Positions 17,984 to 22,911 of a stretch of DNA of 64,000 nt are shown in pieces. Made by a program: the position numbers and the translations under genes. Below the pieces are notes generated by a model that saw only the letters and a list, made by a program, of their open reading frames with translations, was not told where the DNA came from and did no database searches. Each line of letters opens with the position of its first letter. Position 1 is the stretch's first letter. The DNA comes from Acidimicrobiales bacterium (GTDB lineage Bacteria; Actinomycetota; Acidimicrobiia; Acidimicrobiales; Aldehydirespiratoraceae). The stretch lies in NCBI GenBank assembly GCA_029263215.1, contig JAJCXY010000041.1, positions 1 to 64,000 on the forward strand. The letters are read 5' to 3'.

Positions 17984-19210
17984 GTGAACACGGGTGAGGT
18001 CTCGGTCTGGACAATCCTGCGCCGCAACATCGCGCCCCTCTATCTGCCCGCGGGGGCGGTGACCCTCGGCGGAGGGATTCTCCTACCCGTGGTACCTCTC
18101 TATCTGGCCGAGGAGGGCATCAGCCTGTCGATGATCGGCGTCATCATCGCGGCAACCGGGATCGGAGCTGCTCTCATCGGGATTCCGGCCAGTGCCTACG
18201 CGGAACGGTTCGGCAACGATCGCCTCATGTTCACCGCCATGGGCGCCGTTGCCGCCAGTGCCCTGTTGTTCGGTTTCACCGACGCCGTGATACTTCTCCT
18301 GCTGTTGCGGATCCTCTGGGGATTTGGTTTCGGCGGGCTCTCACAATCACGCCAGCTCTTCATAGCCCGCACGATCGCGGCCCCGGTTCGGGGCCGGATC
18401 AACTCCTTCATGGGCGGCACCCACCGGTTCGCGTTCGTGATCGGTCCGCTGATGGGTGGGGCCATTGCCGACAGATGGGGATTTCGTGCTGCCTTCACCA
18501 CTTCGGCCGTGGTGATCGTGATGGGCCTCGTTGGGGCGGCTCTACTCGGAGGGCGTGAAGCTCCGGCTGACTCCCAGCGCCATCCGCGGGTACGGGTGGG
18601 ACCGGCTCTTCGGCGTCATCGTCGCCTCTTGTTGAGGGTGGGTCTCGGTCCCATGCTGATCATGGCCGCTCGGCAGGGTCGGTACGTGGTGATACCTCTC
18701 ATCGGCGACCAACTCGAGCTGAGCGCGTCGGCGATAGGCAGCCTCGTTGCGGTCGGCACTGCGGCCGATTTCATCCTCTTCCCAGTGGCGGGATATGTGA
18801 TGGACCGGTTCGGAAGACTCCACGCCATGGTCCCCGCGTTCAGCCTGATGTCGATCGGGTTGGTGCTGCTCGGTTTTGCCGACTCCACCGGTGCGGTCGT
18901 GGTGGCGACGATTGTGATCGGGATGGGTAACGGGTTGTCGGCGGGGACCATTCTCACCCTCGGCACCGACCTCGCGCCCGCAGATGCTCAAGGTCCCTTC
19001 TTGGCCGGTTTCAGCCTGATGGGCAACGCCGGGTTCTTCGTAGGTCCCGCCGTTGTGGGTTGGTCGGCCGGCGCGATCGGGCTCGACGCATCCGCCTTCG
19101 CCCTCGCCGCACTCTTGGCCGTGGGAGTGATGTGGGTGGCCCTCGTCGTCGGAGAGACGGGTGCGGCTGCGGGTCAGGGACGGGGCCGGAAGCGCACCAC
19201 GGCCAGATAG
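17984..19210 (+). CDS. Major facilitator superfamily transporter
   Basis: A 408-residue protein with 12 hydrophobic segments and a charged central loop (REAPADSQRHPRVRVGPALRRHRR). The first half has the MFS loop 2-3 pattern IPASAYAERFGNDRLMF and the second half repeats it as FPVAGYVMDRFGRLHAM. Such proteins are proton-coupled exporters or importers; the substrate is unknown. The GTG at 17984 is preferred from its -10 spacing. The last 37 bp overlap the convergent ABC ATPase gene. Confidence 0.88.
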   Translation: MNTGEVSVWTILRRNIAPLYLPAGAVTLGGGILLPVVPLYLAEEGISLSMIGVIIAATGIGAALIGIPASAYAERFGNDRLMFTAMGAVAASALLFGFTDAVILLLLLRILWGFGFGGLSQSRQLFIARTIAAPVRGRINSFMGGTHRFAFVIGPLMGGAIADRWGFRAAFTTSAVVIVMGLVGAALLGGREAPADSQRHPRVRVGPALRRHRRLLLRVGLGPMLIMAARQGRYVVIPLIGDQLELSASAIGSLVAVGTAADFILFPVAGYVMDRFGRLHAMVPAFSLMSIGLVLLGFADSTGAVVVATIVIGMGNGLSAGTILTLGTDLAPADAQGPFLAGFSLMGNAGFFVGPAVVGWSAGAIGLDASAFALAALLAVGVMWVALVVGETGAAAGQGRGRKRTTAR

Positions 19211-20028
19211 CCGTCGGCCACCGTGGGCTCGGCGGACTCCACTCCGGCGGGGACAGTCTGTGCGACGCAGCGGTAACGCTCCGGGCCAATTGCGCGGCAC
19301 ACGGCCATCGGATCTGCCACATCTGTCTCCCACACATGGCCTTCTGCCCGGGCTGCGAGTTCGCGAGGCACTCCGTCGAAGGCAACTCTTCCCTCCTCGA
19401 GCACCAGCACCCGCCGACAGGCGGCGGCGAATTGGTCGGCATGGTGGGTGGCGACGAGCACGGTTGCCTCGGCGGCGAGTTCGACCAGAAGGCGGGTGAT
19501 CTCGCCCCTCTGCTCGGCATCGAGGGAGGTGAGTGGTTCGTCGAGCACAAGCAGATCGGGCCCGCCCAGCAAGGCCTGGGCGATCGACAGGCGACGCTTC
19601 ATGCCTCCGCTCAGAGTACGAATGCGGTCGTCGAGATGATCGGTGAGCGCGACCCGCTCGAGCGTCCAGGCCGTCCAACGCCTGCGCAGCCGGGCCGGAC
19701 CTATCTCTTTCAAGGCGGCGACGTAGTTGCAGTACTCCCTCACCCGCATCCGTCCCGGAAGGCCGTCGTCTTGGGCGACATAGCCGAGCCGGCGCCGAAT
19801 CGCGGTGCGCTCGGCGGGGTCGGAGGGATCGAGTCCGGCGACACGGATCGAACCCGAACTCGGTTCGGTGACCGTGGCCGCGAGCTTGAGGAGGGTGCTC
19901 TTGCCCGAGCCGTTGGGGCCGAGCACTGCGGTGATGCCGCCATCGAGCACGGTGGGGTCGAGAGCAAGGACAGCCTTGGCGCCATAGCGCTGGCCTAGAG
20001 ACTCGAAGGAGACGACGGGGCCTGGCAT
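19174..20028 (-). CDS. ABC transporter ATP-binding protein
   Basis: A 284-residue single ABC ATPase. Walker A is GPNGSGKST, the Q-loop lies in GYVAQDDGLPGRM, the signature is LSGGMKRRLSIAQAL, and Walker B is LLVLDEPLTSLD, followed by the switch His in ATHHADQ. This pattern is of the CcmA/DRA class of ABC-2 exporters. The N-terminal loop is intact and the C-terminus carries about 60 extra residues. It starts 4 bp after the stop of the upstream membrane protein gene, so that protein is the likely permease partner. It is the last gene of the ECF sigma operon. Confidence 0.9.
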   Translation of the reverse strand: MPGPVVSFESLGQRYGAKAVLALDPTVLDGGITAVLGPNGSGKSTLLKLAATVTEPSSGSIRVAGLDPSDPAERTAIRRRLGYVAQDDGLPGRMRVREYCNYVAALKEIGPARLRRRWTAWTLERVALTDHLDDRIRTLSGGMKRRLSIAQALLGGPDLLVLDEPLTSLDAEQRGEITRLLVELAAEATVLVATHHADQFAAACRRVLVLEEGRVAFDGVPRELAARAEGHVWETDVADPMAVCRAIGPERYRCVAQTVPAGVESAEPTVADGYLAVVRFRPRP

Positions 20029-21367: not shown

Positions 21368-22363
21368 CTAGAAAACCGACACCCTCCGACGGCGGAAGGG
21401 CACGAATCGGCGTAGCCGACGTATCCGGCGCCGCCACGCCGACGGGAACGGATAGCGCTCCCTGGTTTCGGCGCGAAACGGGTAGAGCAGCTGGCCCGGA
21501 ACGCTTGGCGGGATCGGGTCGTCGTTGCCGTAGATGGCGGGACGACGATCCTTGGGCATGAAGTAGGTGCCCCAGATCATGTCCCAGATCGGGAGGAATA
21601 CCGAGTAGTTGGTGTGGATCGATTCCGGGTAGTTGGCGTGATGCCAGTGGTGGAACTCGGGAGTCATGACGATCCGGTGAAGGGGGCGCAGTCGCCAGCG
21701 GATGTTGGCGTGAGCGACCAGGCCGAGAATCGTCTGGATGATCGCCACCGCACCGACCACTTCCAGCTGGAAGCCGGCGACGATGAGGAACACCGCGGGA
21801 ACCACGATGATGATCCCGTCGAACGGATGTTGACGAATCCCTGAGATCCAGTCCATCTTGGCGCTCGAGTGGTGGATGGAGTGGAAGCGCCAGAAGAAGC
21901 CGACCTCGTGGCCGAGTCGGTGGGCCCAGTAGATGAGCATGTCGGCCAGGAGCACCGCTTCGGTAGCGAGCAACCAGGTCGGCTGCGCCATCACCAACGG
22001 CCGCAGGGCGAGCGCCGGGAGGATCACGGGGAATGCCAGGAGGGCGATGCCGATTCCCATCGCGATCCCGACGACATTGAGTACCGGTGCAACGAGGGCA
22101 TAGGTGAGGTCGGTGCGAAGTCCGGGACGTCGAATGGCTTGGTCGTGGCGACGAAACATCTTCTCGAACGGCACCAGGATGACGAAGAGAGCGACGATCC
22201 CTCCGGCACCTTCGAGACCGAAGTACATGCCGATCGGGATGGCCGCGAGAAGGCCCACGATGTGGATCCAGCGCACGACGCGCCATCGGCGGGGGCGACG
22301 GTCGGGCCGCGGTGGGGGCGGGGGAAGGACCGAGTTCGGTGGTGAAGGGAGTGACGACTGCAT
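21368..22363 (-). CDS. Fatty acid hydroxylase/sterol desaturase superfamily membrane protein
   Basis: A 331-residue integral membrane di-iron enzyme. The His clusters are all present: HRLGH, HSIHHSS and HHWHH, spaced along a core of four to five hydrophobic segments. The family inserts hydroxyl groups or double bonds into sterols, fatty acids or carotenoids, with a lipid substrate at the membrane. The start is ATG 22363 with GGAGG 8 nt upstream; the track ORF begins within a region antisense to the cytosine deaminase gene. It is the first gene of an operon with the ECF sigma factor, the membrane protein and the ABC ATPase. Confidence 0.88.
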   Translation of the reverse strand: MQSSLPSPPNSVLPPPPPRPDRRPRRWRVVRWIHIVGLLAAIPIGMYFGLEGAGGIVALFVILVPFEKMFRRHDQAIRRPGLRTDLTYALVAPVLNVVGIAMGIGIALLAFPVILPALALRPLVMAQPTWLLATEAVLLADMLIYWAHRLGHEVGFFWRFHSIHHSSAKMDWISGIRQHPFDGIIIVVPAVFLIVAGFQLEVVGAVAIIQTILGLVAHANIRWRLRPLHRIVMTPEFHHWHHANYPESIHTNYSVFLPIWDMIWGTYFMPKDRRPAIYGNDDPIPPSVPGQLLYPFRAETRERYPFPSAWRRRIRRLRRFVPFRRRRVSVF

Positions 22364-22401
22364 GGGGGAACCTCCTACTCCACTTATCGAGATGCGACCC
22401 T

Positions 22402-22424
22402 CGAACGGTTCATTTGACCGTTCG
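22402..22424. promoter_or_regulatory. Perfect 8-bp inverted repeat in a divergent promoter (candidate operator)
   Basis: CGAACGGT (22402-22409) and ACCGTTCG (22417-22424) flank a 7-bp spacer. The element lies between the desaturase/ECF operon and the cytosine deaminase gene, over the expected -35 region of the latter. On the minus strand the arm also reads TGAACC, similar to the -35 element of many ECF promoters. It could therefore be a repressor site, an ECF promoter element, or both. Confidence 0.6.
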
Positions 22425-22437
22425 GTGATGTGGGCTC

Positions 22438-22443
22438 CACGAT
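22438..22443 (+). promoter_or_regulatory. Possible leaderless -10 box CACGAT
   Basis: CACGAT lies exactly 6 nt before ATG 22450. It lacks the first T of TAnnnT, so it is a weaker match than others in this window, but it is the only start signal visible before the deaminase gene. Confidence 0.4.
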
Positions 22444-22449
22444 GGCGTG

Positions 22450-22911
22450 ATGAGCGTTGAACTGAGCGATGACGACCGCAAGGGGCTTCAGGCCGCCATC
22501 GAGGAGGCCCGGGCCGGGCTCGCCGAGGGGGGCATTCCGATCGGCTCCGCCTTGATGATCGACGGTGAAATCGTGGGCCGGGGCCACAACCGGAGGGTGC
22601 AGCAGGGGTCGGTTGTGCTCCATGCCGAGATGGACTGCCTCGAGCAGGCGGGCCGACTTCCCGCCTCGGCCTATCGGCGGGCCACCCTCTACTCGACCCT
22701 CTCACCGTGTGACATGTGCACGGGAGCGGCCCTTCTCTACGGGATACCCCGCGTGGTCATAGGTGAGAACGAGACCTTCCTCGGAGGCGAGAGCCACCTC
22801 GAAGGGCGTGGTGTGGAGCTGGTGCGAGCCGACGACGCGACGTGCAAGCAGATGATGAGGGATTTCATCGCGGCGGAACCCCAGCTGTGGAACGAAGACA
22901 TCGGCGAGTGA
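22450..22911 (+). CDS. Cytosine deaminase of the yeast (FCY1) type
   Basis: A 153-residue zinc deaminase. The ligands are in HAEMDCLEQAG (His58, with Glu60 as the proton shuttle) and SPCDMCTGAALLYGIP (Cys87, Cys90). The run GENETFLGGE and the C-terminus CKQMMRDFIAAEPQLWNEDIGE match the fungal cytosine deaminase tail closely, unlike tRNA-adenosine or guanine deaminases. It would convert cytosine to uracil for pyrimidine salvage. The bacterial CodA enzyme is an unrelated amidohydrolase. It ends 3 bp from the convergent xthA and lies 0.8 kb from pyrE. Confidence 0.88.
   Translation: MSVELSDDDRKGLQAAIEEARAGLAEGGIPIGSALMIDGEIVGRGHNRRVQQGSVVLHAEMDCLEQAGRLPASAYRRATLYSTLSPCDMCTGAALLYGIPRVVIGENETFLGGESHLEGRGVELVRADDATCKQMMRDFIAAEPQLWNEDIGE

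Follow-up and report, generated by a model that had tools for sequence, protein, structure and literature searches.

A palindrome over a probably autoregulated ECF operon promoter in an Acidimicrobiales genome

The intergenic region between a lipid hydroxylase gene and a divergent cytosine deaminase gene in a 64,000-nucleotide stretch of Acidimicrobiales DNA (the window) very probably contains the promoter through which an ECF sigma factor activates its own operon, with a perfect inverted repeat lying across it that most likely plays no part. We reach this reading from the conservation of the promoter in orthologous operons, the fixed spacing of its two elements, and its co-occurrence with the sigma factor gene. 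A preliminary description of the region had drawn attention to the inverted repeat, proposing that the site either couples the two divergent units or is autoregulated by the ECF sigma factor. Autoregulation is strongly favored by the comparison, since the promoter is kept in all readable sigma-bearing operons. Coupling is not: in most relatives ~1.8 to 3.3 kb separate the promoter from the deaminase gene, which stays on the opposite strand and has no ECF −10 element directed at it.

The operon and its divergent neighbors

Four tightly packed genes run leftwards from the region, encoding a hydroxylase, an ECF sigma factor, a protein with six predicted transmembrane (TM) helices, and an ABC ATPase (Table 1). 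The hydroxylase ATG (22363, minus strand) is preceded by AGGAGG, and the gene product, initially labeled a desaturase, fits better under the fatty acid hydroxylase superfamily (PF04116). It shares this superfamily with the ornithine-lipid hydroxylase OlsE but scores 127 bits against the OlsE model, far under the curated cut-off of 475. The second gene encodes a protein with only the sigma2 and sigma4 domains (PF04542 and PF08281) whose 185 residues fall within the ~200 or fewer typical of ECF factors; its closest solved relative is SigE of R. sphaeroides. The third product (259 amino acids) consists of an N-terminal part of ~70 residues followed by the six predicted TM helices. Its AlphaFold2 model is of moderate confidence (pLDDT 69.6) and gave weak, nonsignificant matches to NosY/ABCG folds (E = 0.33); no Pfam family matched the protein and no anti-sigma domain was recognized in it. 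We regard it as a candidate ABC permease and/or anti-sigma factor. The ATPase scores 150 bits against the drrA subfamily model, under the cut-off. To the right, the deaminase matches solved cytosine deaminase structures (E ~1e-48) and is far more distant from bacterial TadA (E ~1e-18). Beyond it lie an oppositely oriented gene for exonuclease III and two genes that, by eye, read as pyrE and pyrC.

Table 1. Features of the hydroxylase-deaminase intergenic region and its flanking genes
Feature	Coordinates	Strand	Basis
Perfect inverted repeat CGAACGGT-N7-ACCGTTCG (8-bp arms)	22402..22424	none	Exact match
−35 element GAACC, ECF-type promoter	22407..22411	−	19/19 orthologous upstream regions, fixed 17-nt spacing to −10
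−10 element CGATA (extended TCGATA)	22385..22389	−	Same footprint; relatives mostly TCGATAG
Predicted transcription start, A	22376	−	Inferred; A as 9th base after CGATA in 17/19 sites
Fatty acid hydroxylase superfamily protein, 331 aa, first gene of operon	21368..22363	−	PF04116, E = 1.7e-27
ECF sigma factor, 185 aa	20809..21366	−	Sigma70_r2 + Sigma70_r4_2
6-TM protein, 259 aa	20033..20812	−	ATGA overlap with ECF stop; sequence
ABC transporter ATPase, DrrA-like	19174..20028	−	PF00005, E = 2.6e-30
Yeast-type cytosine deaminase, divergent neighbor	22447..22911	+	PF00383

This arrangement resembles autoregulated ECF operons (Group IV sigma-70; SigE/RpoE, SigK, SigL, and SigW types) in its sigma2-sigma4 protein, in a promoter with an AAC-containing −35 and a short CG-starting −10 placed ahead of the sigma-encoding operon, and in an overlapping downstream membrane gene. 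It differs from them in having CGATA(G) in place of the classical CGT as its −10, a lipid hydroxylase gene in first position, and a partner that has six predicted TM helices, lies beside an ABC ATPase, and carries no recognized anti-sigma domain. Adjacent genes for an ATPase and a 6-TM partner are also found in ABC-2-type exporters (DrrAB and NosFY), and the partner has a weak, nonsignificant fold resemblance to NosY; in contrast to those systems, however, the membrane protein here lacks a Pfam match and bears the ~70-residue N-terminal extension.

A conserved promoter ahead of the operon

Orthologous operons were taken from same-family genomes plus named Acidimicrobiales/Acidimicrobiia assemblies, and their upstream regions were aligned. 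The sequence GAACC-N17-CGATA was found on the hydroxylase strand at 19 of 19 readable loci, over a range of hydroxylase identity from 79% down to ~46%, and the spacing was always 17, the search having permitted 15 to 18. Because the columns were found by pattern, the invariance of GAACC and CGATA is partly a selection effect of the search; a fairer statement is that the site lies near the hydroxylase start in all 13 bacterial loci with a sigma gene and enough upstream sequence. The pattern matched shuffled regions at a rate of 2.6e-4. Outside the search pattern, informative columns were a GT directly ahead of the −35, two Gs (+27 and +29), and an A (+35), numbered from the G of GAACC. The −10 context in the window, CGATAAG, is one base off the relatives' CGATAGAG. 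The minus-strand TGAACC and the TCGATA 16 nt later, correctly read in the preliminary description, are this conserved pair, the boxes of an otherwise ordinary promoter of the stress type.

No promoter site was found at any of 25 Poseidoniales archaeal hydroxylase homologs without a sigma gene. The sole bacterial locus scored as lacking the sigma gene but bearing the site, L117, sits on a contig that ends inside the hydroxylase gene, and the sequence ahead of it is the one found in G015, a genome with its sigma gene on a separate contig. The Poseidoniales contigs (L095 to L125) encode hydroxylase homologs of ~45 to 55% identity outside any sigma operon, which suggests inter-domain transfer or mis-binned contigs.

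In several relatives an ATG follows CGATA by 7 to 8 nt and the predicted transcription start is the A of that ATG, implying leaderless messages. Ten loci with a longer leader have an A at the equivalent offset, which in the window is position 22376; leftward transcription would thus start near this position. The −35 contains AAC and the −10 begins with CG, at fixed spacing, ahead of the sigma operon, and conserved in orthologs, as expected of an ECF promoter. Early-defined ECF promoters carry AAC at −35 and CGT at −10 (PMC8103513), whereas CGAT was present in all 19 sites here. Since the features that define ECF factors were later narrowed to the sigma2 and sigma4 domains, this difference is compatible with membership in the class (PMC8103513). 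ECF factors most commonly regulate themselves positively (PMC8103513).

We infer that the operon's own sigma factor is the one that uses GAACC-N17-CGATA and take the membrane protein encoded downstream of the sigma gene as the natural candidate for its anti-sigma partner. The sigma factor would be released by its membrane partner, most likely this 6-TM protein with its overlapping reading frame, and would then take RNA polymerase to the promoter, with transcription proceeding from approximately position 22376 through the hydroxylase, sigma factor, membrane protein, and ABC ATPase genes in turn. The sigma factor therein most likely activates its own membrane-lipid and transporter operon. More tentatively, the 6-TM protein could be the permease of an ABC exporter and its N-terminal extension an anti-sigma domain, a proposal we consider possible but doubtful; if it is true, the state of the transporter would directly free the sigma factor and turn on lipid hydroxylation. 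A signaling core formed by the sigma factor, membrane protein, and ATPase fits with the trios of these genes that occur without a hydroxylase gene at L077 to L081. The sigma factors of these trios are 45 to 50% identical, and the GAACC-N17-CGATA box is absent from their available sequence; we take the trios for a related system that uses another promoter.

The inverted repeat and alternative readings of the site

The perfect 8-bp dyad is present as first described: positions 22402 to 22424 read CGAACGGTTCATTTGACCGTTCG, with no second exact copy elsewhere in the 4.05-Mb genome. With one bulged base allowed, the arms reach 10 to 11 bp (CGAACGGTTCA-TT-TGACCGTTCG). The palindrome alone nevertheless carries little weight, because the window has 42 inverted repeats of this kind (8 bp, perfect, loop of 3 to 20), compared to 35.6 ± 7.4 expected in first-order Markov sequences. 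Four have a loop of exactly 7 (2.25 expected). By chance, any single gap of ~84 bp should hold ~0.05 such repeats; here the hydroxylase ATG and the deaminase GTG/ATG (22447/22450) are ~83 bp apart. A whole-genome scan allowing ≤3 mismatches returned 39 sites versus 22 for a reversed control. As for a dyad regulon in this genome, the nine next-best loci (L002 to L010) overlap reading frames of ≥100 codons and were rejected, a weak test given that the GC-rich genome places the dyad itself in spurious frames too.

The dyad lies 39 bp from the hydroxylase ATG, in agreement with the ~40 bp first claimed, and 22 bp from the deaminase GTG. Its reported placement over the −35 region of a deaminase promoter is only plausible (TTGACC, 22414 to 22419), as a consensus scan found no sigma-70 promoter for the deaminase. 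One arm (22402 to 22409; ACCGTTCG on the minus strand) includes three bases of the ECF −35 box plus spacer and is hence under some constraint from the promoter. The other (22417 to 22424) lies upstream of the ECF promoter in alignment columns of ≤0.54 bits, which are not conserved, and this complementary arm is lineage specific and probably accidental. No comparable dyad was detected at this position in any of the 18 other orthologous loci. The preliminary description had expected a functional dyad to persist in close relatives that keep both genes; at G007/L085, one relative from another genus, hydroxylase and deaminase genes are directly divergent and the ECF promoter is present, yet the dyad is absent, the outcome named in that description as speaking against it. 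Within a comparison in which all relatives lie outside the window's genus, the dyad is most likely incidental, probably a chance arrangement.

The foremost alternative is that the dyad is an operator at which a dimeric repressor (e.g., of the TetR type) blocks both divergent −35 regions, coupling the hydroxylase-ECF operon with the deaminase gene. The perfect, extendable arms, the unique exact copy, and a position that covers the ECF −35 and adjoins the TTGACC facing the deaminase would all suit an operator. However, ~36 palindromes of such size are expected per window, the deaminase gene is away from the promoter in most relatives, and a regulator gene is neither fused nor adjacent; moreover, the conservation of the palindrome expected of an operator in orthologous regions was seen at none of the 18 other loci, all from other genera. 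We consider this reading improbable. Less probable still is that the dyad represents two back-to-back ECF −35 boxes, with the same sigma factor also driving the deaminase gene on the plus strand. Plus-strand TTGACCGTTCGG resembles the −35 minus one base, and a CGAT occurs further downstream (22440 to 22443), but the box reads GACC rather than AACC, the CGAT is ~20 nt downstream rather than 17, and an ECF site facing the deaminase gene was found in no relative, L085 included. That the repeat works as an RNA hairpin, for attenuation or transcript stability, is very unlikely: the folding energy of −13.2 kcal/mol corresponds to a z-score of just −1.78, a terminator search found none, the dyad lies upstream of the predicted leftward start and probably of the rightward start too, and the repeat is not conserved.

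Candidate regulon and significance

To return to the ECF promoter, the strict pattern gave 25 hits in 12 family genomes and none for the reversed control. Extra sites in relatives lie 7 to 8 nt ahead of the start codons of envelope genes. Two are common to G008 and G036, where the site precedes a small lipoprotein gene and a membrane protein gene, the homolog of the latter in G022 being preceded likewise; a site in G007 precedes what appears by eye to be a gene for a putative secreted alpha/beta hydrolase. At these lipoprotein, membrane protein, and putative hydrolase loci (L133, L141, L146, L131, L143, and L130), all behind the same ECF promoter, the start codon is in most cases 7 nt past the match (leaderless). 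Such target genes suggest an envelope-related response. G036 keeps two regulon promoters, and an orthologous sigma gene was not found there; the gene may simply be missing from the assembly, which is 81% complete.

The window's genome has no homolog of the G008/G036/G022 membrane protein and only a distant homolog of the G007 hydrolase. It contains 12 one-mismatch sites (7 in the control), none convincing besides the operon, so the promoter consensus lacks a cross-check within this genome. One candidate, L157 (a Pup-ligase-like gene, by eye), has a site just ahead of a plausible start but was rejected as it lacks a good −10.

A literature search for a link between ECF factors and the hydroxylase returned nothing relevant. 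The locus illustrates that a striking palindrome over a promoter need not be an operator, with footprinting placing the constraint on the sigma factor boxes instead. Acidimicrobiales are known mainly from metagenomes. For an ECF system of this group of which we found no prior description, the analysis supplies a consensus promoter sequence and a small set of candidate regulon genes, and with these the targets of the sigma factor become predictable in relatives.
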